Shown here in pieces: positions 1 through 63,486 of a stretch of DNA of 64,000 bases. Made by a program: the position numbers and the translations under genes. Each line of letters opens with the position of its first letter. Position 1 is the first letter of the stretch. Source of the stretch: Maribacter polysaccharolyticus (GTDB lineage: Bacteria > Bacteroidota > Bacteroidia > Flavobacteriales > Flavobacteriaceae); contig NZ_JARBUY010000001.1 of the NCBI RefSeq assembly GCF_028882255.1, forward strand, positions 1,332,344-1,396,343, read 5' to 3'. The notes under the pieces were generated by a model, which searched no databases, was not told the DNA's origin, and was given only the letters and a program-made list of their open reading frames with translations.

Positions 1-231
1 CAATATGGCAGCTTTACTCTTGCTAAGACTGTTAACGGGTATGAACCCGATAGAATTACAGAGGCAGAAATACCAGACACCATAGAATTTAGAATTGTCC
101 TTATTGAGGCTTCAAATACAACTTCTAGTAAATCGATCCGTCCAGACATACTAAACGAATTGAAGTCGGCTGAAGTAGATATCAACGATTATTATGCAGT
201 CTGTGACTATTATGGAATTTGTAAGAATTAA
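1..231 (+). CDS. 3' end of an unrecognised gene (partial)
   Basis: Frame 1 is open from the first base to a TAA at 229-231, giving the last 76 residues of a protein whose start lies outside the window. The piece is polar, with a Thr/Ser-rich middle and a C-terminus that carries two Cys residues six apart (AVCDYYGICKN). I do not recognise a family. It lies on the same strand as the secreted-protein cassette that follows, about 80 bases before the first leucine-rich-repeat lipoprotein, so it may be an earlier member of the same gene set. The paired C-terminal Cys recalls the Cys-containing tails of the next two proteins, but this is only an impression. Confidence 0.6.
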   Translation, partial: QYGSFTLAKTVNGYEPDRITEAEIPDTIEFRIVLIEASNTTSSKSIRPDILNELKSAEVDINDYYAVCDYYGICKN

Positions 232-310
232 ACTTAATGGCTTATTGGAATACTACGTACGATACTCCAATTGTCCTAGGAAGCCTTCTCTTGACTCAAA
301 ATTAAATCAT

Positions 311-2032
311 ATGGAAACAATAAAAACACTTTGGAAGAGCACCTACAAAATCCACCTCATCATTTACTTATTATTGGCCGTCGTGGTTACCCGGTGTAGC
401 AAAGATGATACTAAGGAGCCTGTTGTCATAGCAACCCCAGAAGAAGAACCAGAACTAAGCGATGCCAAAGAGATCACCAGTTTTGTGTTTTTACTTACCA
501 ATAACCCCATTGACATTAATGTAGTGGCAAACATAGATGAAGACAATAAGACCGTTACGGCCGCCATGCCCCCAGATACGGACATTACAGGGCTATTGCC
601 GGAAGTGAAAATATCTGAACTTTCAACTATTGACCATGATACAGCCCAAGACTTTACAGAGCCGATAGAGTATACCGTAACCGCAGAAGATGGTAGTACC
701 ACGGTTTATACCGTAACTATAACTAACCTGTTGACCCAACGGCAAATTTTACAGGCTATTCTAGATGCTAATCCGGGAAACATTCTCACTTGGAATCTAA
801 ATACAATCGAGAATTTAGGAGACTTAGACGGTGTAACGTTAAATACAGAAGGTGAAATTATTGAATTAAATATAGAATATGGGACTATTTCCACACTTCC
901 TAAAGAAATAGGGCAATTAACAAGCTTGGAATCTCTAAATCTAGCTCGCAACCAACTTGCAGCAATTCCTGCAGAGATAAAGCAATTGGTTCATTTGGAA
1001 TTTTTAAACGCAAGTAATAACGAACTTATGGTAATTCCTTCAGAAATAGGACAATTGACCAGTCTAATAGAATTAAACTTATTTGGATGTTATATTTCTC
1101 AAATACCCCCAGAAATTGGGCAATTGAAAAATTTAGAAAAATTGCATTTACACTGGAATAATATTACTTCGCTTCCTCCAGAAATAGGACAATTAACCAA
1201 TTTGGAACTATTAAGGTTAGATGATAACGAACTTACTGAAATACCCCCAGAAATAGGACGCTTGTCAAATTTAAAAATGTTACTGATAGGAAGTAACGAT
1301 TATACTGAATTACCTTCGGAAATAGGACAATTAACTAAATTAACAAGATTATCTTCAACCAATGGCCCACTAACTCACCTACCACCAGAAATAGGACAAT
1401 TAAGAAATTTAACAGAATTGGAGGTTTATAATACCCAACTTACTTCCTTACCTCCAGAAATAGGCTTTCTTCGTCAATTAGAAAGGATAGAATTATTCCA
1501 AATAAATAATATATCTGTATTACCTGAGTCAATCTCTTATTTAGTCGAATTGCGAGATCTGATTGTTTTATCAGATGATATGATTACTTACGAAACTACT
1601 TCACAAAAAGATGCTCTTATTAGTATATATAGTGCCAACCCCGGTAACACCTTAGGTTGGGGAGTAGATAACTATCCTGAAGTTTCATTTGATGACAATG
1701 GCAACCCTAAGGCCATTACTATGAATAATAGAAACTTAACTAGAATACCAGGAAATATTTCGTCTTTATCAAGTTTAGAAAGCTTTAATGTAAATAGCAA
1801 TAATCTGACAAGCTTACCATCTACGTTGGGCGATATAAATACATTAAGTGTAATAACAGCGGCGAGTAACAATCTAAGTACTGTCCCGTCAGAATTAGGG
1901 CAACTAAACAATTTAGCCCTATTGAGTTTGACCAACAACCCTATAAGTAGTATACCCCAAGAAGTATGTGAACTGCAAACAAATAGCGTCCCACTTACCC
2001 TACTTACAGATCCCGGTAAGGGTTGTGACTAA
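311..2032 (+). CDS. Leucine-rich-repeat lipoprotein, copy 1
   Basis: Predicted surface lipoprotein of 573 residues. The ATG at 311 is preferred because it is followed at once by a basic-hydrophobic signal ending at Cys29 (VVTRC-SKDD, a Bacteroidota-type export signal); an upstream in-frame ATG at 194 would lie inside the preceding gene. Residues about 50-140 form a beta-sandwich domain of the kind ending in YTVTAEDGST (DUF5018-like). Residues about 144-165 are a cap (ILQAILDANPGN), followed by about ten 23-residue leucine-rich repeats of the LPPEIGQLxNLxxL type. At about 433-455 a second cap (ALISIYSANPGNTLGW) opens a second block of about four repeats ending in VCELQ and a C-terminal GCD, probably a disulfide. 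The repeats suggest protein binding; the ligand is unknown. It is 42 bases upstream of a close paralogue. Confidence 0.88.
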   Translation: METIKTLWKSTYKIHLIIYLLLAVVVTRCSKDDTKEPVVIATPEEEPELSDAKEITSFVFLLTNNPIDINVVANIDEDNKTVTAAMPPDTDITGLLPEVKISELSTIDHDTAQDFTEPIEYTVTAEDGSTTVYTVTITNLLTQRQILQAILDANPGNILTWNLNTIENLGDLDGVTLNTEGEIIELNIEYGTISTLPKEIGQLTSLESLNLARNQLAAIPAEIKQLVHLEFLNASNNELMVIPSEIGQLTSLIELNLFGCYISQIPPEIGQLKNLEKLHLHWNNITSLPPEIGQLTNLELLRLDDNELTEIPPEIGRLSNLKMLLIGSNDYTELPSEIGQLTKLTRLSSTNGPLTHLPPEIGQLRNLTELEVYNTQLTSLPPEIGFLRQLERIELFQINNISVLPESISYLVELRDLIVLSDDMITYETTSQKDALISIYSANPGNTLGWGVDNYPEVSFDDNGNPKAITMNNRNLTRIPGNISSLSSLESFNVNSNNLTSLPSTLGDINTLSVITAASNNLSTVPSELGQLNNLALLSLTNNPISSIPQEVCELQTNSVPLTLLTDPGKGCD

Positions 2033-2074: not shown

Positions 2075-3778
2075 ATGAAAACACGTACAACCCTTTATAA
2101 AAACATCTTTCCGATAAAGCTAATTGCCGTGCTCCTTTTAGTAACAAACACCATAGGATGTAGCAAAGATGATGACTCAGCCTCTAAGGAAATCACAAAA
2201 AGTAGCGAAAAGCAAATCACCAGTTTTGTTTTTCGATCAACCGTCACCTTTTTCCAAACCGATCTGGTGGCAACCATAGATGAAGAGAATAAAACGATCG
2301 ATGTCACCGTACCACCAGATGCGGACGTTTCAAACCTGTTACCCGAAATTATGATATCAGAGGCAGCCACTATAGATAAAACCACAGCCCAAAACTTTAC
2401 CCAGCCTGTTATGTACATGGTTACCGCCGAAGATGGGTCTACGGCCACATATACGATAACTGTTCATTTCCCATTAACACAACGTCAGGTTTTACAGGCC
2501 ATTTTAGATTTTAACCCCGGCAATACCATAACTTGGGATTTACAAAACACCAATGATTTAAATGATCTTGATGGCGTAGTTACAAATACAGAAGACAAAA
2601 TCACTCGTTTAAGCCTTGGAGAATTAGGCATAACTGCTTTACCCAAAGAAATTGGCCAATTAACCGATTTAACCTATTTATACCTTGGGGAATCCGAACT
2701 CAGGGAATTATCAAGTGAAATAGGGCAATTAACCAACTTGGAAGAATTGCATCTACATGATAACTTTCTTACCTCCTTACCCAAGGAAATTGGCAATTTA
2801 GCTTCTTTATTGTTTTTAGGTCTTGATGGAAACTCGCTGACAACATTACCTGATGAAATCAACAAGTTAAAAAACCTGGAAAAACTTTATTTAGGGGCCA
2901 ACCAGCTCACCGCTATACCAGCAAATATTAGTGAAATGGTAAATCTTACACAACTTATCCTATCCAGCAACCTATTAACCGAATTACCTATTGAACTATG
3001 TTCATTGGTGAATTTGACCATATTGGATTTGAGTATCAACGATATCATATCGGTGCCCCAAGAAATAGGGCAGCTGGTTCATTTAGAAAGGTTATTCTTG
3101 GCTGGAAATGAACTTACTACGATCCCAAAGGAATTGGGGAAATTGGTAAATCTTGAAATTCTGTCATTAAACAATAATCAACTTACTTCCGTTCCTCCTG
3201 AAATAGGGTTTCTCATAAACTTAAAGACATTGCGCTTATCCGAGAACAACATAACTACTTTACCATTATCGGTTTATTATATTAAGAATTTTCATAATCC
3301 TACAATGACCATCACCCATGATCTGGTCCAATTGGGAAATGACACACCAATAGACGCGCTCATTGGAATTTACACTGCTAACCCCGAAAATACCTTGGGT
3401 TGGAGCGTGGACCACTATCCTGAGGTTACATTTCATGACAATGGTAACCCTAAAACCATTACCATGAACAATAAAAACCTGACAAGAATACCTGAAAACA
3501 TCAACCGTATTAATTCCTTAGAGACTTTAAATGCAAACAACAATAATCTAGAAAGCCTACCCTCATCCCTTGGAAGTATAGAAACTTTAGCCGTTTTGAC
3601 TTTGGCCAGTAACCAACTTAATACAGTTCCGCCGGAGTTAGGACAGCTAAACAATTTAGCCTTACTGAGTATAACCAACAACCCTATAAGTAGCATACCC
3701 CAAGAGGTTTGTGATCTGCAAATATCGAACGGAGGCATACTTACCATCTTAACTGATTCTGGTGAAGGTTGTGATTAA
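2075..3778 (+). CDS. Leucine-rich-repeat lipoprotein, copy 2
   Basis: Paralogue (567 residues) of the preceding gene with the same order of parts: signal with lipobox Cys29 followed by SKDDD, a beta-sandwich domain ending in VTAEDGSTATYTITV, a cap with ILDFNPGN, a first block of leucine-rich repeats with the LPKEIGQLxxLxxL pattern, a second cap (ALIGIYTANPENTLGW), a short second repeat block, and a C-terminal VCDLQ...GCD. The last 130 residues are the most conserved between the two copies, while the individual repeats of the first block differ. This points to an old tandem duplication followed by change in the presumed binding face. It was probably co-transcribed with its neighbours; no terminator is seen in the 60 bases after it. 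Confidence 0.88.
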   Translation: MKTRTTLYKNIFPIKLIAVLLLVTNTIGCSKDDDSASKEITKSSEKQITSFVFRSTVTFFQTDLVATIDEENKTIDVTVPPDADVSNLLPEIMISEAATIDKTTAQNFTQPVMYMVTAEDGSTATYTITVHFPLTQRQVLQAILDFNPGNTITWDLQNTNDLNDLDGVVTNTEDKITRLSLGELGITALPKEIGQLTDLTYLYLGESELRELSSEIGQLTNLEELHLHDNFLTSLPKEIGNLASLLFLGLDGNSLTTLPDEINKLKNLEKLYLGANQLTAIPANISEMVNLTQLILSSNLLTELPIELCSLVNLTILDLSINDIISVPQEIGQLVHLERLFLAGNELTTIPKELGKLVNLEILSLNNNQLTSVPPEIGFLINLKTLRLSENNITTLPLSVYYIKNFHNPTMTITHDLVQLGNDTPIDALIGIYTANPENTLGWSVDHYPEVTFHDNGNPKTITMNNKNLTRIPENINRINSLETLNANNNNLESLPSSLGSIETLAVLTLASNQLNTVPPELGQLNNLALLSITNNPISSIPQEVCDLQISNGGILTILTDSGEGCD

Positions 3779-3838: not shown

Positions 3839-4465
3839 ATGTATACGGATATCACAGAAGGGCGTAAAAGAAATTTCATTTACTTAATTATATGTCTTTT
3901 GATATCCGTTTATCTTTCCCCTATACTCGCCCAAGATACACGCGATCATCGACCAAATAAAAAAGCCTTTGCCAGTCAAGTATTCTATTTTGATGAAGCT
4001 GATGCCATTTTTGGTAAAAGAACTGAGGTTAAAAAAGCATACCCCACATTTAAATATACGGGTAAGGTACCTACAATCAGGGTAACCCAAGCATTGAAGG
4101 ACGGGGTGAATTCGATTTATGGATTGAAGTCTGGCCACACCTTATATGCCATTGTACAAAAAGGAAAGATAATTCGATTTGAAGGGGCCAATGACGGGTC
4201 CTCCAATACATTACTTTTTTCAGAAACTGACAAAAACAAATCTTGCTTTACTTGTACAGAACTCTGTTTTAATACGGCAGATGGCAGCGTACAAGATTGC
4301 TGGACGATTTGCGAAACGGTTGATTGTTCAAAAGATTACAATGCCCAAAAACAAGGACAATCGGCACCAACACCAAAATCACCCCCATTACCAGTAGGAC
4401 CCATTCCCATACCCTATCCAAATAGCTCAAAGTTGGATAGCACGAACCGGTTTAACCCCAATTAA
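3839..4465 (+). CDS. Secreted Cys-rich protein with RDHR leader motif
   Basis: Exported protein of 208 residues, family not recognised. A hydrophobic signal (about 12-32) ends in PILAQ, and the mature protein would begin near Q32-DTRDHR; RDHR is at 35-38. The same motif sits in the same place in three further proteins of this cassette. The middle is mixed alpha/beta. The C-terminal third holds six Cys in the pattern C-x2-C-x3-C-x10-C-x3-C-x4-C, followed by a Pro-rich tail (SPPLPVGPIPIPYP). Six closely spaced Cys in an exported protein suggest a disulfide-knotted module. Function is unknown. Secretion and the motif are read from sequence; a role as a small matrix or binding protein is inference. 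Confidence 0.78.
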   Translation: MYTDITEGRKRNFIYLIICLLISVYLSPILAQDTRDHRPNKKAFASQVFYFDEADAIFGKRTEVKKAYPTFKYTGKVPTIRVTQALKDGVNSIYGLKSGHTLYAIVQKGKIIRFEGANDGSSNTLLFSETDKNKSCFTCTELCFNTADGSVQDCWTICETVDCSKDYNAQKQGQSAPTPKSPPLPVGPIPIPYPNSSKLDSTNRFNPN

Positions 4466-4546
4466 ATACGTGTAGGTCAAATACCTGCATTTTGATAAGG
4501 GGACTTTATTAAAATCTTAGAACAAATAAATTTAAAGTCAAATATC

Positions 4547-6151
4547 ATGAAGACAGCAACGATATTGAAGTTTATAAAGAACCCGATTTACCCATTTATC
4601 GTGTTTTTTACAACGGTTTGCATTTGGCCCGTTCAGGCGCAAACCGTTCGCGACCATAGAAATAAACCAAAAAAAACGGTGGTACGTGACCATAAAAACC
4701 AAACCACCTTTAAACCCTTAAACCATTATTGGAATGGTAGTAGAAAGGACAACCAGCTTACTGCAACAATCGAAGGTAAGAATGGGGCATTAGGCGCGGA
4801 CTATCGTTTTGTGCGACAAGATGGATATGTCTTGGAAAAAGCTTCTAGCATAGAAGGTCAAGCAGTACCCCTCTATTTGTACTACAGCGATGCACGAAAA
4901 GACAATTTTACAACTGCTACAACTGAAGGAATCAGGGCTGCTAAAGCGGCGGGATATAAAAAAGTAAGAGTCCAAGGTTATATTCTAAAAAATGTAAAAC
5001 CAAAATATCAACATTTATACAAGCCGCTTTGGTTGTATTACCATGACACACGAAAGGACAATTTCACAATTGCTACAGCAGAGGGGAGGAGCGTAGCAGA
5101 AGCAGACGGTTATAGAAAGGTACGAATTGAAGGTTATATTTTAAACGCTTTAGACAATAACCATCAAATAGAACTCACAACAGTACTAAGTGCAAGGTAC
5201 TTGAACAATTATCCAAGCGACCGAGGAAATGGTTGGAGTGACAAACTACAAGGTGTTGGCCATAACGATGCCAATTGGTTTTTTACGCAAAAGAAGCGGT
5301 TGTGGAAGTTTCCTATATCACACGACCTGAACAAACATATTAGTCGAAGTAATTTGCCCTCTGGAGTCAAAACCGTATCAATTCCAAATGTATTGAGTAG
5401 TAAAGGCTACAACCATTTTGGTGATCTGGTCGAATATAAGGGCTTTTTGTTTATCCCTTTGGAAGCTGAGCACAATAGCTATGGAAAAGTAGTTAGTTAT
5501 GTAGGTATTGAAGTAGACAGTCCTAAGAACGGAAAGAACCCATTAATTGCAGTATTTAGAGCCTCTGATTTATCTTATGTTGGTTCGGGTGCTTTACCAG
5601 CCCAGACCAAAGCTGGTTGGTGCGCTATTCACCCTCAAAATGGCATGTTGTATACGTCTAACAATAGTATGAATATCGACAATAAATTACTGGTCTATAC
5701 CATGGACTTAGAAGCTTTGAAAGAGAATAGGAAATGGCTAAAGTATAGTGGTTCTAAAGATTTGTTGGATGAGAATGGAAACATTATTACCATAAAAGAA
5801 TACATGCAGGGTGGGGAATTTTCAGATGACGGTAAATTTCTGTTCATCATAAATGGTAAAGGCACTGATTTCAATAAAAAAGATGGGGGTATATGGGTTT
5901 TCAATTTTAAAACTAGAAGAAAGGCACTAAAATCTGAAACCAGTGGAATTTTTAAATATGAATTTAATCCAGGTTATAATATGGAAGAACCGGAAGGTCT
6001 TACCTACTGGGATTTAGACAACTTAAACGCGCCAGGAATCAAGGGGAAGCTTCATGCTATCTTATTGAACAGCGATGCCACGAGTAGCGATGAATTTTGG
6101 TTTAAACATTATGATCTTAAATCAGTTAGAGTCTCTTTATATGGGAATTGA
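4547..6151 (+). CDS. Secreted RDHR-motif protein: triple repeat plus propeller-like domain
   Basis: Exported protein of 534 residues. The signal peptide ends WPVQAQ; RDHR follows at 35-38 and a second copy, RDHK, at 47-50. Residues about 57-198 are three tandem repeats of about 46 residues with the core YY-x-x-x-RKDNFTxAT-x-EG and ending GYRKVRIEGYIL, resembling the DUF5648 type repeat. Nearly the same triple block is found at the C-terminus of the astacin-like protease at 9516-11342. From about 215 to the end, the spacing of short beta-rich segments (WCAIHPQNGMLYTSN, FSDDGKFLFII, EPEGLTYWD) suggests a beta-propeller of the YncE or glutamine-cyclotransferase class. A binding or sensing role in the envelope or outside the cell is inferred. 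No enzyme motif is obvious. Confidence 0.82.
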   Translation: MKTATILKFIKNPIYPFIVFFTTVCIWPVQAQTVRDHRNKPKKTVVRDHKNQTTFKPLNHYWNGSRKDNQLTATIEGKNGALGADYRFVRQDGYVLEKASSIEGQAVPLYLYYSDARKDNFTTATTEGIRAAKAAGYKKVRVQGYILKNVKPKYQHLYKPLWLYYHDTRKDNFTIATAEGRSVAEADGYRKVRIEGYILNALDNNHQIELTTVLSARYLNNYPSDRGNGWSDKLQGVGHNDANWFFTQKKRLWKFPISHDLNKHISRSNLPSGVKTVSIPNVLSSKGYNHFGDLVEYKGFLFIPLEAEHNSYGKVVSYVGIEVDSPKNGKNPLIAVFRASDLSYVGSGALPAQTKAGWCAIHPQNGMLYTSNNSMNIDNKLLVYTMDLEALKENRKWLKYSGSKDLLDENGNIITIKEYMQGGEFSDDGKFLFIINGKGTDFNKKDGGIWVFNFKTRRKALKSETSGIFKYEFNPGYNMEEPEGLTYWDLDNLNAPGIKGKLHAILLNSDATSSDEFWFKHYDLKSVRVSLYGN

Positions 6152-6185
6152 AGGCAAGAATAAAATAATTCTAAAAATTAAAGTT

Positions 6186-7814
6186 ATGATACTAAAAACA
6201 AAATTAAAAAGAAACCTGATTTGCCTGATAATAGGCCTTTTTGTAACAGTCTATGTTTCGCCACTGCAAGCTCAAATTGTACGTGACCATAGAACAAAAA
6301 AAACAAGCGACCCTTTTACAAGGTTAAAGACCGAAGCAAAAAAAACGGCAGTACAGAAATCTAAAATGACCTCGGTTCAGATAACCGTAAACAATCCTAA
6401 TTGGAAAGGAACGTCAAAGACTAAAATTGAATTCGTACCATTTAAACTTGAAGATAAAAACGGAAATCCTATTCCGCCAAATAAGAGGGTTTCATTAAAA
6501 GATGGTAGAGTAATCACGGCACAACAGTATTTGAATGAAACCAATGCACTCGAAAAAAAACTAAATAGCCAAGGTTATAGTTTAAGGAACAATGGTGAAA
6601 AGGTTGTTTCTAGAACTGTCACAAATAAAAAATTTTTAGATGGGAGAAGAGCTTTGGCACCGAAATCCATAGGTGCTTTTAAAAAAGAAGCAGAAGTTAA
6701 AAAATTCATGAGTTTAGAACAAAGGGTTAAAGTGGTTGGGGCATCGCCAAACGGTAGGTCCCCGATGATCATGCTAAAGCCATATAGTAGCTATACACAA
6801 AGAGAGCGGGAAAAGATAAATATGTATAATTTTTCTAAAAGAGCAGGAACTGTCATAGCACAAAAAACAACAAAACAGCGACCTTTTAAGGACCTGAGGC
6901 CAAAAAAAATAGGCAACCTTTCAAAACTCTATGAATTCAATAAAACGAACAGTAAAAATTGGGGGTTTGGAAATCCAGATACATTTCAAGCAAGTCTAGA
7001 AGGATCTATTACCCGTTTTGTAAAAATTTACCCTTTTGACCCACAAAATACCGACAATAACAAGTCGGAGTTTAAAGTAAAAGCAACAAGCAAAGCAACA
7101 GGCTCACTTTTAGGAAAATCCATAGATGTTCTTAATGCGAGTTGTCAATTTTACGCACCTTCCAATGTGTCCAAAAAAATGAGTGCGACAATTTCGGTAA
7201 AAGCATTGGAAATGAACCTTTTTCCTCCAAAATCAACCACTTTTTCACAGCAAGAATCATTTTCTAAAACCTATGGTAGATCTTTTGATAAATCTTTTCC
7301 TTTACAGGTGCCAATTTTGCCAGGAATAGATTTTGTAGGCCTTATTGGTGTAAAAGGGGAAGTAGGATTTGAATATGAAGCAAAAATTGAAAGAACGGTA
7401 GCCTCCGTTCATGCCAAGCCTTTAATTGATCTAAAAGTCTACGGCGAAGGCGGTCTTAATCTTATAGGGGTCTTCGAAGGCGGTGTTGAGGCAGAATTAA
7501 CCTTTATCAAAGGTGAATTGGACTTAAATGCATTCGCAGGCATATTCAGTCAAAATTCTGAAAATATCGTGGTTGGCATCAATCATTATTTTGGATACGA
7601 CATTGAAATCTTAAGTGGTTCAATAAGTGCCTATGGTGAAGCCTGCTCCCCCATAGATATCCCCTTTATTGATGATTGTTATCGGAAAGAACATGAATTG
7701 TTCGAATGGAGTGGCTTTATGGATTCCGGAACCATAACTGAAGGTGGATTCGAACCTTTTACATTGAAAAACATCGCAAGATATGATGAAACCCCAGTGT
7801 TCACCCAAGATTAG
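6186..7814 (+). CDS. Secreted RDHR-motif beta-rich protein
   Basis: Exported protein of 542 residues; family not recognised. An open frame reaches back to 6075, but the ATG at 6186 gives a normal signal peptide (basic N-terminus, hydrophobic core, ending PLQAQ) and avoids a 77-base overlap with the previous gene. RDHR is at 33-36, directly after the cleavage site. The N-terminal half is very Lys-rich. The C-terminal half (about 310-500) alternates Gly and hydrophobic residues (GLIGVKGEVGFEYEAK, GGVEAELTFIKGELDLNA), which predicts long amphipathic beta-strands, and two Cys near the end could pair. It is 6 bases upstream of the HEAT-like lipoprotein, so the two are probably translated together. 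A lipid-binding or barrel-like fold is possible but is inference. Confidence 0.78.
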   Translation: MILKTKLKRNLICLIIGLFVTVYVSPLQAQIVRDHRTKKTSDPFTRLKTEAKKTAVQKSKMTSVQITVNNPNWKGTSKTKIEFVPFKLEDKNGNPIPPNKRVSLKDGRVITAQQYLNETNALEKKLNSQGYSLRNNGEKVVSRTVTNKKFLDGRRALAPKSIGAFKKEAEVKKFMSLEQRVKVVGASPNGRSPMIMLKPYSSYTQREREKINMYNFSKRAGTVIAQKTTKQRPFKDLRPKKIGNLSKLYEFNKTNSKNWGFGNPDTFQASLEGSITRFVKIYPFDPQNTDNNKSEFKVKATSKATGSLLGKSIDVLNASCQFYAPSNVSKKMSATISVKALEMNLFPPKSTTFSQQESFSKTYGRSFDKSFPLQVPILPGIDFVGLIGVKGEVGFEYEAKIERTVASVHAKPLIDLKVYGEGGLNLIGVFEGGVEAELTFIKGELDLNAFAGIFSQNSENIVVGINHYFGYDIEILSGSISAYGEACSPIDIPFIDDCYRKEHELFEWSGFMDSGTITEGGFEPFTLKNIARYDETPVFTQD

Positions 7815-7820
7815 GAAATA

Positions 7821-9476
7821 ATGAAAATCATCGGAAATTTAGGTACCCTACTTCTTTTATGTTCCTTTATTCATGGATGTATCGGGAGTAGAAGTACCCT
7901 TGGTCCAAACCGATCCCATTATACCTACAGTGCGGAAAATTTCGGGTATAGCGATATAAAAAAACTTTATAATCCTGATTCCGTAATTGCTGCCAATGAC
8001 TTTTTCGATAGTGAATCATTACAGTATTTGGAAATGACCCTTCAGAGCGATTTAGAAAAAACAATGCTGATAAAAACTAAGGACAGTATGTTGATCTGTT
8101 ATCAATTACAAAACCCGATACTGAATTTAAAGAACGAAGGAATTTCAATTGATCTACATCCGATTCTTCAAGAGTTGATAAAACCGGTATTTGTATATAC
8201 CGATACTTATGGAAAAATAGGAACTATACGATTTGATTCTCAATTGTCTGAAATAACAACGGGAATATACAAAGACATACTTAGTAGAATGCAATTTGTA
8301 AGGCCCATGGAAAATGCTAAAGATTGGCGAACGACCGAAGAGAATACCCAAGGGACCTATATTGCCGAATACCAAAGCGTGGATTCCCATAATTCCAATC
8401 CAATCTACAAAAAGAATGTGCTTATTTATCTAGCCTACAAATCGGAAAATGAAAATCAAAAAATAAACACGGATAGCAATACCATTATAGAAACTGATGC
8501 TACCGGGGCAATCAAGAAAATAAATATTTCCGAAGCCCAAATCGTGGTACGGGACAATGACACTTTGAGTGTACAAGGGGCTAAAGTGTCGGTCTTTATG
8601 CTTTTTGAAAAGCAAATGGAAAATATTGACATTTCACCTCTCTTAACGCTGGAAAAATCTTCTGCCTATAATCAGAAAACAACATTGAGTGAGGCTACCT
8701 CACTAGGGGAGATCAGAAGAACGGCCTATAAAGGAACTTTAGGTTCGGATAATTGGGAGGCCTTAATTCAAAAACTGTCAAAAGTAAATACCTTGAACGA
8801 AGCTTTGAAAGAAGATTTGATTTTAAAGTTTAGGGCTCTATTTTATCTGCAGCCGGAGTATTGCAGTAAGGCTGTTTCTTTCCTCGATAATCAATTAGCC
8901 ACCTCTAGTGAATTTGTCATATTAAGCAAAGCCTTAACCATTACCGAAACCCCTAGTGCCACAAATGCCTTGGCGTTGCTTATAGATAAGAACAAAAGTA
9001 ACGAAGACCTAGTGGGGGCATTGATTCCCGTACTGACCACCACAAAGTACCCTACAGGCAAAGCCATTGAAGTTTTAAAGAAAATAGCCTTTAAGGAAGA
9101 TGAATCCCTAGGATATTTTACAAAATCAACAGCACAACTCGCCTTAGGTGGTATGGCCAAACATCTAAGGCCTTCCGATAGTTTAGGATCCCAGGCACTG
9201 ACAAATTATCTTATTGAAAAAATGAAAACCGAAAAAGATACGATGCAGCATCTAATGGTATTGGGCAATACAGGATCTCCTGCAATCTTCCCATATATAA
9301 AATCTTTATTGGAAGACAAACATCCGTCAGAGGAAATAAAACTTGAAGCCGTTTCCACCTTGGGGCCCATAGATGACATGGAAGTATCCGTTTACTTAAA
9401 AAAATTGTTGCAGCATGCGAATGTGGCTATACAAAATAAGGCTAAGGAAGTTCTTGATTTTAAGATGGACAATTAG
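7821..9476 (+). CDS. HEAT-repeat lipoprotein, vitellogenin-N-like layout
   Basis: Predicted lipoprotein of 551 residues with lipobox FIHGC (Cys20). Residues about 60-280 are beta-rich; residues about 300-551 are alpha-helical repeats, the last ones reading LMVLGNTGSPAIFPYIKSLL and KLEAVSTLG in classic HEAT rhythm. A beta-sheet domain followed by a helical horseshoe containing LGNTGSP is the layout of the vitellogenin/lipophorin N-terminal lipid-transfer module. This likeness is by eye and needs a profile search. The start ATG is 6 bases after the preceding stop, which suggests the beta-rich protein and this lipoprotein act together. Otherwise it should be called a HEAT-repeat lipoprotein of unknown function. 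Confidence 0.78.
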   Translation: MKIIGNLGTLLLLCSFIHGCIGSRSTLGPNRSHYTYSAENFGYSDIKKLYNPDSVIAANDFFDSESLQYLEMTLQSDLEKTMLIKTKDSMLICYQLQNPILNLKNEGISIDLHPILQELIKPVFVYTDTYGKIGTIRFDSQLSEITTGIYKDILSRMQFVRPMENAKDWRTTEENTQGTYIAEYQSVDSHNSNPIYKKNVLIYLAYKSENENQKINTDSNTIIETDATGAIKKINISEAQIVVRDNDTLSVQGAKVSVFMLFEKQMENIDISPLLTLEKSSAYNQKTTLSEATSLGEIRRTAYKGTLGSDNWEALIQKLSKVNTLNEALKEDLILKFRALFYLQPEYCSKAVSFLDNQLATSSEFVILSKALTITETPSATNALALLIDKNKSNEDLVGALIPVLTTTKYPTGKAIEVLKKIAFKEDESLGYFTKSTAQLALGGMAKHLRPSDSLGSQALTNYLIEKMKTEKDTMQHLMVLGNTGSPAIFPYIKSLLEDKHPSEEIKLEAVSTLGPIDDMEVSVYLKKLLQHANVAIQNKAKEVLDFKMDN

Positions 9477-9515
9477 GAATAAGCACATAGAACAGTAACA
9501 CTAAAACCAAAAGCC

Positions 9516-11342
9516 ATGAATATTGCAATGAAGTCAAAAAACACTATTATTCTACTAACAATAAGCATCTTAGCTTTGTTGTATATTGTTCCGGCGTACG
9601 CCCAAAATATCCGTGATCATCGAAAAAAGAAAACGGCAGAAAAATCGGGAGTCGAAACATTCCATCCCCAAAGTACAGAACGCATTGCAAAAAAAGTCAA
9701 TGCATATTTACCTTTTCATCAAGAATCAAAACTTGTCGCTATGGAATTTGTGGATGGTATGGCGGTCATGGAAGGTGATATAGTATTGGGGCCAAGCCAT
9801 CTATATTCCGGTGAAAATCAATTTGCCGTTGTCATTGATGGTGATACATATCGCTGGAGAGATGGTATAATTCCCTTTACGATTGAAAGCGGACATCCCC
9901 AACGGGAATTAATCCTACAGGCCATTCAACATATTCATGAACAAACCAATCTTAAATTAGTTTCACGCACCATTGAAAATGATTATGTCACATTCATTAC
10001 AGGAGATGGTTGTTGGTCTAGAATAGGCAGATGTGGCGGAAAGCAAAGCATCAATATTGGGGCTTGTGGTTTTGGCAGTATTGTCCATGAAATTCTGCAC
10101 ACTGCAGGATTATGGCACGAACAGTCTCGCGAAGACCGGAATGAACATGTCACCATACTATGGGAGAATATAAAACCGGACAAAAAAAACAACTTTGAAA
10201 GACATATTTCTGATGGCATTGATATTGGACAATACGATTGTAACTCTATCATGCATTATCCGCCTTACGCTTTCAGTAAAAGTATTTTACCAACCATCAC
10301 GAGTACAAAATGCACCTCTTTTGGTCAACGCAGCGGCATGAGCTCGGGAGATAAAATGGCAATCAATGAATTGTATAAAGTTACAGTGCCTGAAAATCTC
10401 ACCAATAGGCCTTGGTATTTGGTGGCTAGGCATAGTGGTAAAGTAGTCAATATCCACGGGGGTCGCCTAAATCCTAAAGCCAATGTACTGCAATACGAAC
10501 TCATTCATAAAGATTCCCAAAAATTCCGTCTGCTTAAAGCTGGAGGCGGATATTACTATATCCAAAATATTAGGAGTAATCTAATACTGGATATTGAGGG
10601 TGGAAATGCCTCCCCTCCTTCAAATGTTTGGCAATATCCAAAAAATGGCACCGATGCCCAAAAATGGCAATTGATAGATGCCGGGAGTGATTACTTTTAT
10701 ATACGTTCGAAATTGGGTGACTTGAATTTAGATGTACAAGGAGGACTTACAAACAATGGGACAAATATCAGGGTAGCGGCTATCAAAGGAGGTCCGGCAC
10801 AACAGTTTAAACTTAAGGCAGCCCATAATTCCTCCCCACCAAGGGATAATTACGCCAAACCCTTAGAGCATTATTGGAACAGTAGCCGAAAAGATAACTT
10901 CACCACAGCTAGTGCCGAAGGTAAGAATAATGCCATAAACGGGAACTACAGATTTGTTCGCGTAGATGGTTATGTATTAAACAAACCTACTTCTTCCGAG
11001 GGTACGGTTGTACCCCTATACTTGTATTACAATAATTCAAGAAAGGATAATTTCACCACTGCCTCGGCCGATGGCATATGGGCTGCAGAAGCCGGGGGTT
11101 ATCGCAAAGCTGGCATTGAGGGCTATGTCTTGAGATCGGTAAAGCAGAAATACAAACACTTATACAAACCACTTTGGTTGTATTATCATGACAAACGAAA
11201 GGACAATTTTACCATTGCCACACCAGAAGGAATGCGAATTGCAGAAGCAGGCGGTTACCGTAAGGTAAGGATAGAGGGCTATGTTAGGATTGATATGACT
11301 TCAAATCTTGCAACAAACCAAAATACAAAAACAAAAAATTAG
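9516..11342 (+). CDS. Astacin-family metalloprotease with ricin-type lectin domain and triple repeat
   Basis: Secreted zinc endopeptidase (M12A) of 608 residues. Signal peptide ends VPAYAQ, then RDHR at 33-36. A propeptide follows with MEGDIVLG; Asp88 matches the aspartate switch that keeps astacin proenzymes latent. The catalytic domain has HEILHTAGLWHEQSREDR (His191, Glu192, His195, third His 201) and the Met-turn SIMHY (Met246). Residues about 290-435 form a ricin B-like trefoil with repeated Q-K/Q-F/W-x-L signatures, likely sugar binding. Residues about 448-598 are three RKDNFTxA repeats shared with the protein at 4547-6151. All active-site residues expected for astacins are present. It closes the cassette and is the only clear enzyme in it, so it may process or remodel the co-exported proteins or an external substrate (inference). 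Confidence 0.93.
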   Translation: MNIAMKSKNTIILLTISILALLYIVPAYAQNIRDHRKKKTAEKSGVETFHPQSTERIAKKVNAYLPFHQESKLVAMEFVDGMAVMEGDIVLGPSHLYSGENQFAVVIDGDTYRWRDGIIPFTIESGHPQRELILQAIQHIHEQTNLKLVSRTIENDYVTFITGDGCWSRIGRCGGKQSINIGACGFGSIVHEILHTAGLWHEQSREDRNEHVTILWENIKPDKKNNFERHISDGIDIGQYDCNSIMHYPPYAFSKSILPTITSTKCTSFGQRSGMSSGDKMAINELYKVTVPENLTNRPWYLVARHSGKVVNIHGGRLNPKANVLQYELIHKDSQKFRLLKAGGGYYYIQNIRSNLILDIEGGNASPPSNVWQYPKNGTDAQKWQLIDAGSDYFYIRSKLGDLNLDVQGGLTNNGTNIRVAAIKGGPAQQFKLKAAHNSSPPRDNYAKPLEHYWNSSRKDNFTTASAEGKNNAINGNYRFVRVDGYVLNKPTSSEGTVVPLYLYYNNSRKDNFTTASADGIWAAEAGGYRKAGIEGYVLRSVKQKYKHLYKPLWLYYHDKRKDNFTIATPEGMRIAEAGGYRKVRIEGYVRIDMTSNLATNQNTKTKN

Positions 11343-53972: not shown

Positions 53973-54045
53973 CCCTGTAATTAGTTATTGAAAAAAAAGC
54001 GAAAAAGAAAATTAAAAATTGATTAACCCTCTAAATCTAAAAGTT

Positions 54046-54633
54046 ATGAAAAGAATCATGAAAATCACCCTTAGCATCGCCTTCCTATTCATCAGTGCAT
54101 TAGGTATGGCCAACGAAATGGATTTAAGAATCATTTCAAAAAATGAAAGCAAGACCTTATTGTTCAACTATGACAACTCCGCTACCGATGCGCAACTAAG
54201 ATTCGTGGATGTTGAAGGTAACGTCATTTTTACCGAAAGCCTTGAGGACAATTCGGAATACTCCAAAAAATTCAATTTGAGTAGCCTTGAGTCCGGTATC
54301 TACTTTTTAGAAGTGGAAGATGCGGTAAAACAAACTGCCTTTACCATTAATGTAGAAGACACCAATGTGGAGATTAAAAGCAAGTCTGAAAAGACCAAGC
54401 CTTTTTTCAGAAAAAAAGATGGAATGGTTTATCTTAACCTATTGAACTTGGACAAGGAAGAAGTTACGATTTCCGTTTTTGATGGACATGAAAGAATTGT
54501 CACAAGTGAACTATTGGAAAACAAAGAAATCGTGGAAAAAGCGTTCAACTTCAAGAATGCCCACGAAGGACTTTATATCATTAAGGTAAAGAAAGGTTTC
54601 GAAACCTATTACGAAAACATTCAAATCGATTAA
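54046..54633 (+). CDS. Exported two-domain beta protein, copy A
   Basis: Secreted protein of 195 residues, start at MKRIMKITLS (54046). Signal ends ALGMANE. Two tandem beta-sandwich units of about 75 residues follow: ESKTLLFNYDN...GIYFLEVEDA and GMVYLNLLNLDKEEV...GLYIIKVKKG. Each has the G-x-Y-x-x-x-V ending of small Ig-like or T9SS-tail-like domains, though no type 9 sorting signal is clear. Two paralogues with the same layout are at 61804-62391 and 62899-63486. Function unknown; abundance in the envelope is suggested by strong matched promoters and terminators. The second domain is the least conserved. Confidence 0.8.
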   Translation: MKRIMKITLSIAFLFISALGMANEMDLRIISKNESKTLLFNYDNSATDAQLRFVDVEGNVIFTESLEDNSEYSKKFNLSSLESGIYFLEVEDAVKQTAFTINVEDTNVEIKSKSEKTKPFFRKKDGMVYLNLLNLDKEEVTISVFDGHERIVTSELLENKEIVEKAFNFKNAHEGLYIIKVKKGFETYYENIQID

Positions 54634-61803: not shown

Positions 61804-62391
61804 TTAATCAATATTAATCCCTTCATAAAAGGTATCAATTCCTTTTTTAACTTTAATGGTGTACTGTCCCTTGTGGGCATCCTTAAAGTTAAATGCTTTT
61901 TTTACGATTGCCTCGTTCCCTGAAATGGTCTTCACAACAGCCCTTTCGTTGATATCGTAAACCGAAACGGTAATATCTTCTTGCTCCAAGTTCAATAAGT
62001 TTAGGTAAACCATACCTTCTTTTTCATAGAATACGGGCTTGGTCTTCTCTGACCTGCTTTTGATGGCAACCGTCGAATCTTCCAAAGTAATGGTGAACTC
62101 GGTCTCCTTGATGGCATCTTCCACTTCAAGGAAATAAACACCGGACTCAAGGCTGGCCAAATTGAATTTTTTGGAGTATTCCGAATTGTCCTCAAGGCTT
62201 TCGGTAAAAATGACGTTACCTTCACCGTCTACGAACCTTAGTTCGGCATCTGTTGTTGAATTGGTATAATTGAACAATAAGGTCTTACTTTCTTTATTAG
62301 GGCTTATTCTCAAATCCATTTCGTTGGCCATACCTATAGTGGTAAAAAATAGGAAGGCGGCACTTAGGGAAATTTTCATTATTCTTTTCAT
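61804..62391 (-). CDS. Exported two-domain beta protein, copy B
   Basis: Paralogue of 195 residues with start at MKRIMKISLS (62391). The open frame extends 19 codons up into the leader, but the start at 62391 matches copy A. Signal ends IGMANE, then RISPNKESKTLLFNYTNS. The stretch NVIFTESLEDNSEYSKKFNL is identical in all three copies, whereas the second domain (GMVYLNLLNLEQEDITVSVY) varies. It shares promoter and terminator with the other copies. Function unknown. Confidence 0.82.
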   Translation of the reverse strand: MKRIMKISLSAAFLFFTTIGMANEMDLRISPNKESKTLLFNYTNSTTDAELRFVDGEGNVIFTESLEDNSEYSKKFNLASLESGVYFLEVEDAIKETEFTITLEDSTVAIKSRSEKTKPVFYEKEGMVYLNLLNLEQEDITVSVYDINERAVVKTISGNEAIVKKAFNFKDAHKGQYTIKVKKGIDTFYEGINID

Positions 62392-62463
62392 AACTTTTTG
62401 ATTTAAAGGATCAATCAATTTTGATTTTCTCTTTCGCTTTTTTTTCAATAACTAATTACAGGG

Positions 62464-62898: not shown

Positions 62899-63486
62899 TT
62901 AATCAACATTAATTTCTTCATAAAAGGTATCATTACCCTTCTTTACTTTAATCGTATAATGACCTCTGTGGGCTTCCTTAAAATTGAATGCTTTCTCGAT
63001 AACCTGCTCGTTTTCCACAATTTTACTGGCAACCATTCTTTCATCTTCATCATATACCGCGATAGCAACATCTTCTTTTTCCAAATTCAAAAGGTTAAGA
63101 TACACCATATGGTCTTTTGTCCTAAATACAGGTTTGGTCCTTTCAGACTTGTTTTTGATGGCTACGGTGTAATCTTCCAAGGTAATGGTGAATTCGGTCT
63201 CCTTGATGGCATCTTCCACCTCAAGGGTATAAACACCCGACTCAAGGTTTCCTAAATTGAACTTTTTTGAGTATTCCGAATTGTCCTCAAGGCTTTCGGT
63301 AAAAATGACATTCCCTTCACCGTCAACGAACCTAAGTTCAGCATCCGTGGAAGAATTGGTATAATTGAACAACAGGGTCTTGCTTTCCTTATCGGTAAAG
63401 ATCCTTAAATCCATTTCGTTGGCCATGCCAAAAGCAGAGATAAATAAAAAAGCCGTGCTTAGGGTAAGTTTCTTAATCGTTTTCAT
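62899..63486 (-). CDS. Exported two-domain beta protein, copy C
   Basis: Third paralogue, 195 residues, signal MKTIKKLTLSTAFLFISAFG ending at GMANE. The first domain (ESKTLLFNYTNSSTDAELRF, GVYTLEVEDAIKETEFTITL) is nearly identical to copy B, and the second (MVYLNLLNLEKEDVAIAVYD) diverges. B and C are in tandem, so a recent local duplication is likely, with A about 8 kb away in the opposite orientation. An AraC-type regulator gene is divergent from it. Confidence 0.82.
   Translation of the reverse strand: MKTIKKLTLSTAFLFISAFGMANEMDLRIFTDKESKTLLFNYTNSSTDAELRFVDGEGNVIFTESLEDNSEYSKKFNLGNLESGVYTLEVEDAIKETEFTITLEDYTVAIKNKSERTKPVFRTKDHMVYLNLLNLEKEDVAIAVYDEDERMVASKIVENEQVIEKAFNFKEAHRGHYTIKVKKGNDTFYEEINVD

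Follow-up and report, generated by a model that had tools for sequence, protein, structure and literature searches.

A transferable N-terminal leader with an RDHR motif on exported proteins of Maribacter polysaccharolyticus and other Flavobacteriaceae

Four exported proteins encoded in one gene cluster of Maribacter polysaccharolyticus begin with the same leader, a hydrophobic signal peptide followed by A-Q-x-x-RDHR. Comparison of the sequences shows this leader to be a transferable N-terminal module: it precedes different bodies, is restricted to one cluster in this genome, has conserved motif residues and repeated motif copies, and in one case can be seen to have been exchanged. The best explanation that we can offer, tentatively and with rather less than even confidence, is that RDHR may be an N-terminal docking or address motif bound by an envelope component encoded elsewhere.

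The tagged genes of the window

The window is the whole stretch of DNA analysed, 64,000 nucleotides of contig NZ_JARBUY010000001.1. The cluster is on its + strand and includes two lipoproteins with DUF5018 and LRR domains, at 194..2032 (CSKDDT behind a hydrophobic stretch) and 2075..3778 (CSKDDDS, likewise behind a hydrophobic stretch). Protein A (3839..4465) has the leader AQDTRDHR and a small Cys-rich body with no family above cut-off; homologues are found at L079, L081, L118 and L127. Protein B (4547..6151) has the leader AQTVRDHR..RDHK, DUF5648 and an unclassified body, and protein C (6186..7814) has AQIVRDHR and a large body with no Pfam or NCBIfam match. Protein D (7821..9476) is a lipoprotein (GCIGSRST) with a helical domain of the Vitellogenin_N/HEAT type and is untagged, having no RDHR. 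Protein E (9516..11342) has AQNIRDHR, a pro-segment with MEGD, an astacin domain, a ricin-type lectin and DUF5648.

The RDHR codons are at 3941..3952 in A, 4649..4660 in B, 6282..6293 in C and 9612..9623 in E, all on the + strand, as is the second copy in B, at 4685..4696. The first residue of RDHR is residue 35 in A and B and 33 in C and E (with C numbered from the ATG at 6186, the longest ORF opening at 6075), in each case two residues past A-Q, and the residues behind it are PNKK (A), NKPK (B), TKKT (C) and KKKT (E). The ORFs and leaders thus confirm the claim of an earlier note on this DNA that four secreted proteins have the motif directly after the predicted signal cleavage site. The ending x-(K/N)-K that it gave for the motif is found in A, C and E, but B has N-K-P, and the second copy that it saw in B does exist, at residue 47, but reads RDHK (RDHR in the G005 orthologue). 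The two LRR lipoproteins and the HEAT-type lipoprotein that it described are all present. It had also described the gene set as uninterrupted by terminators; we counted 12 terminator-like sites against 10.2 expected from shuffles, and those on the + strand are absent from the short intergenic gaps.

A search of the 4.76-Mb genome for Q-x-x-[R/S]-D-H-[R/S] gives 10 places, of which four, those in A, B, C and E, lie behind a signal peptide. A profile built from the four leaders finds them with E values of 1.2e-25 to 9.4e-23, and the next of its 15 matches in the genome has an E value of 0.018. The four of ten places behind a signal peptide and the gap in E values rule out a chance origin of the motif, and neither the pattern nor the profile search of the 4.76-Mb genome gave a fifth protein with a signal peptide and A-Q-x-x-RDHR. 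Judged from the sequences, the tagged leaders did not arise by chance, and secreted proteins of this genome do not have them in general.

With regard to the bodies, when A, B, C and E of the window were compared without their first 60 residues the only BLAST pair at E 1 or better was B with E, through DUF5648. The earlier note's description of the bodies as different therefore holds for A and C, which have no BLAST match to each other or to the others, but not fully for B and E.

Elsewhere in the window, at 54019-54633, 61804-62448 and 62899-63486, there are three related small exported proteins with ANEMDLRI... past the signal peptide, which form a local paralogue family.

Occurrence, exchange and neighbours of the leader

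Tagged leaders were found in eight genomes of Flavobacteriaceae. These are the window's own; G005 (which matches Maribacter aquimaris, L055), G008 and G010 from the same genus; G236 and G264 from the same family; G430 (Aureibaculum flavum, L043); and G429 (Aequorivita capsosiphonis, L050), the three named species all being Flavobacteriaceae. Leaders are present in 4 of 12 genomes of the window's genus, in at least 4 of 393 sampled genomes of the family (15 matched the profile at E 0.001, the remaining 11 without RDHR) and in at least 2 of 395 sampled genomes of the class (three matched at E 1e-4, the third without RDHR). The family and class counts are lower bounds, with at most 18 first-look candidates scored per genome, and the genus, family and class samples overlap. 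The weak profile matches, in 11 family genomes and one class genome, are ordinary signal peptides with no RDHR.

A strict pattern search of a collection with one genome per species gave leaders in 3 of 18 matched stretches, the other 15 being outside a signal-peptide context (upstream frame, judged by eye), and a looser pattern, which occurs at 29 places in 397 family genomes, marks leaders at seven of these. A scan of viral contigs gave one matching stretch, with the motif within an ORF and no signal peptide before it. The random scatter through unrelated genomes that the earlier note had named as a ground for dropping its proposal was thus not what we found, as pattern matches in other taxa lie outside a signal-peptide context and the leaders in the sampled genomes are all from Flavobacteriaceae. 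In the portions of the open-licence literature covered by our search there was no paper on an RDHR motif behind a signal peptide.

Across the eight genomes five bodies bear the leader (A, B, C, E and F), and a sixth, X, bears a degenerate one (RNQR). When trimmed of their leaders, A, B, C, E, F and X gave no cross-match at E 0.5 or better apart from DUF5648 in B and E, and up to E 1 the only further hits are weak ones above E 0.5. The B body has DUF5648 in the window and lacks it in Aequorivita (31% identity over 344 residues), and the F body occurs both with and without it. In Aequorivita the protein at L125:9140-10951 combines a DUF5648-like part with an F body, has no N-terminal motif and has IRDHRTD at its C-terminal end; the DUF5648-like part is below the cut-off of 25 bits (E 8e-5, 23.3 bits) and shares 61-66% identity with DUF5648 in B and E. 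Protein C is rare, being found in 4 of 395 sampled family genomes; its predicted structure has a mean pLDDT of 33, and in the PDB sequence searches the best E values were 0.11 for the protein C profile and 0.012 for protein B.

The exchange is seen in G005. In both its upstream DNA and the start of its signal peptide, the third tagged gene there is close to gene C of the window; the motif comes next, and behind it an astacin body. Neither the C body nor D is present at this site, and the switch in similarity falls within the leader, around the motif codons. A C-type leader is thus joined to an astacin body in a sister species, which indicates that the leader can be swapped.

A hybrid two-component regulator is found upstream of the cluster in seven of the eight genomes. 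In Aequorivita there is none in the 9.1 kb from the contig start to the pair, where an AraC-type gene is present. In all seven regulators scanned a single protein carries Y_Y_Y, HisKA, HATPase, receiver and AraC-type HTH domains, and six of the seven have a Reg_prop propeller, that of the window genome having none listed at E 0.01. The regulators, at L078:13694-17749, L079:5366-9439, L081:8850-12920, L118:5809-9870, L083:5023-9078, L127:8645-12736 and L133:2254-6333, fall into two sensor classes, one in the window genome, G010 and G264 (33-36% mutual identity) and the other in G005, G008, G430 and G236 (55-72%). Between the classes identity is 17-23%; the boundary, near HisKA, is sharp, and all the kinase/receiver/AraC halves beyond it share 56-82% identity. 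Thus identity between the regulators of the window genome and G005 is 19% on the N-terminal side of residue 820 and 72% on its C-terminal side, and the tagged proteins of the same two genomes are 94% (A), 93% (B) and 87% (E) identical. These comparisons mean that the sensor half of the regulator is exchanged between species, and the change of sensor beside conserved outputs makes the locus a natural experiment on change of input in these regulators. Since the sensor class changes and the tag stays, we reject the regulator sensor as a likely receptor of the tag.

The earlier note had suggested looking for clustering near LRR lipoproteins and astacins. LRR lipoproteins are in four of the eight tagged clusters (window, G005, G010 and G236) and an astacin is in two; C and D are in six and the regulator in seven, and no gene is common to all eight. 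A partner of the tag, if there is one, would thus be encoded elsewhere or be something other than a protein.

Possible roles of the motif

Our comparison of 18 leaders includes window and G005 orthologues and leaves out X; the clusters are related, so the leaders are not independent. Where signal peptidase I is predicted to cut, all 18 read [A/S]-Q, cleavage being judged by eye from the sequence. Q, R and D are invariant (18/18), 15 leaders have H, and the motif ends in R in 16 and in K in 2. The motif is present in one to three copies per leader and is mostly followed by T or N and K. B, C of G008, F of G264 and the B-type protein of Aequorivita each have two copies, and C of G264 has three (RDQR, RDHR, RDQR). 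Recognition by a partner is favoured by the constancy of the tag while the bodies change, by its repetition and by the one C-terminal copy; the last two are easier to reconcile with a binding motif than with a site for processing alone.

The leader would then consist of a signal peptide and, behind it, one to three copies of a basic linear tag, Q-x-x-R-D-H-R. Recombination would have joined this leader to exported proteins that are unrelated to each other and are encoded in a single cluster of co-oriented genes, in most cases with the hybrid regulator upstream. After removal of the signal peptide by signal peptidase I the Q would be expected to cyclise, following the Q-rule of Bacteroidetes, and the exposed RDHR may then hold or route the tagged proteins at the envelope by binding a component encoded outside the cluster. 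Several observations count against such docking, among them the lack of a gene common to all eight clusters. In degenerate form the tag reads RDGK, then REHR, in A of G008, RDKK in A of G010 and RNQR in X, so that protein A can lose it. The tag of E lies in front of the pro-segment with MEGD, which we take to be an aspartate-switch-like motif, and the activated astacin would probably shed it.

Charge could account for anchoring without any sequence specificity, if LPS or an anionic polymer of the surface is bound by the basic segments. Over the first 18 residues of the mature protein, net charge averages +3.0 for 16 leaders, compared with -1.1 for 38 other Q-type N-termini from these genomes (Mann-Whitney p 9e-8, uncorrected for relatedness, with the window C leader left out and some lipoproteins and membrane proteins in the comparison set), and there are lysines behind the motif. 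However the lysines drift, whereas the D and the R-D-H-R spacing are kept, and as charge alone would not keep D or H we think this explanation rather unlikely.

The motif might instead be a processing site, at which a protease cuts R-x-x-R or R-D and so trims or activates the proteins. It is in a suitable position, just past the signal peptide, and R-x-x-R resembles dibasic cleavage sites. The earlier note had put forward the astacin of the cluster as the protease, and E does have the zinc motif HExxHxxGxxHE and the SxMHY Met-turn of astacins (M12A). However a search with PF01400 matched 3 of 12 genomes, with only G000 and G005 above the cut-off and no match in the other six tag-bearing genomes, and we therefore reject an astacin as general processor of the tag. 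Flavastacin, a flavobacterial astacin, is reported to cut before Asp, as cited in PMC5595805, and this would have suited the R-D of the motif, but the excerpts of that paper do not themselves confirm the Asp specificity. The repeated copies and the C-terminal copy also argue against processing, which we consider unlikely.

We are equally doubtful of a third explanation, that the leader was duplicated with the genes and kept for its working signal peptide, RDHR having no role. The signal peptides do look homologous: taken alone, those of the four window leaders have a mean pair score of 26.3, and none of 20000 sets drawn at random, from a pool that included 30 further signal peptides from these genomes, scored as high. 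The likeness is uneven, B with E scoring -3, and 25 of 82 pairs of leaders on different bodies are above the 99% level of leader-to-other pairs (highest leader-to-other value 47). The exchange through the leader and the loss of RDHR from two A proteins are also in keeping with this explanation. However the signal-peptide columns have diverged, most agreeing in 10-32% of pairs (53% at -3 and 44% at -1), whereas Q, R and D agree in 100%, and the motif is repeated in several proteins. Identical motif residues have the same codon about as often as identical residues in other columns, so Q, R and D are fixed despite codon variation and selection is probably on the protein, although the leaders are related. 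Constraint on the motif at the amino-acid level is probably the simplest reading.

Protein D directly follows C in all six clusters with C. Its helical domain matches Vitellogenin_N (PF01347) and aligns with microsomal triglyceride transfer protein, and equally with designed helical repeats; a PDB sequence search with the D profile gave no match at E 0.1. Large lipid transfer proteins have an N-terminal lipid-binding beta barrel, and the part of D where it would be expected, residues 1-310, is modelled at pLDDT below 50. C and D are possibly a lipid-transfer-like pair. That the D solenoid is the receptor of the basic tag is very improbable, and as an obligatory receptor it is rejected, for although it accompanies C and designed armadillo proteins with bound Arg/Lys peptides are high among its solenoid matches (a likeness that shows no function and that we do not take as evidence of binding), the net charge of its helical half is -4 to +6 across six D proteins and it was not found in G005 and G429 (one of the searches being without a positive-control genome), both of which keep the tag.

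Going beyond docking itself, one may speculate that RDHR serves as docking code in an undescribed surface assembly of the tag-and-dock kind in marine flavobacteria, in which cargo is swapped behind a constant tag and the regulator swaps its sensor, the locus being a polymorphic cassette for recognition or niche sensing. We regard this wider proposal as unlikely as it stands. If the tag is an address, it would also be a predictor of exported proteins that are assembled together.

Comparison with known systems

The PEXEL and RxLR motifs of parasites and oomycetes are similar in being short Arg motifs downstream of the signal peptide in many unrelated proteins. However RDHR has no Leu and does not fit their R-x-L consensus, it is in other organisms, and there is no evidence of delivery to a host. 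The C-terminal domain of type IX secretion is likewise a sorting module shared by unrelated bodies, but the tag discussed here is N-terminal, and none of the seven window proteins has such a C-terminal domain in Pfam and NCBIfam scans at E up to 0.1. The lipoprotein export signal of Bacteroidetes belongs to lipoproteins, whereas the tagged A, B, C and E have A-Q at the leader and no lipobox Cys. The likeness to that signal, as given in the excerpts of PMC5080379, is that a short mature N-terminal sequence decides location.

The tagged leaders agree with the Q-rule of Bacteroidetes, as described in the excerpts of PMC5837995, in having Q at +1 of the predicted signal peptidase I site (18/18). 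The rule concerns Q alone and RDHR is additional, and in those excerpts the logos flanking Q have no clear difference between proteins with demonstrated and undetermined cyclisation. The pyroglutamate suggested in the earlier note has its Q at +1, but this is generic to Bacteroidetes and not specific to the tag; what survives of its reading of the motif as a tag is the conserved, shared motif at the predicted mature N-terminus, the astacin having been dropped. If the tag is an address, it would represent an N-terminal sorting or docking code in Bacteroidota that is distinct from both the lipoprotein export signal and the type IX domain.
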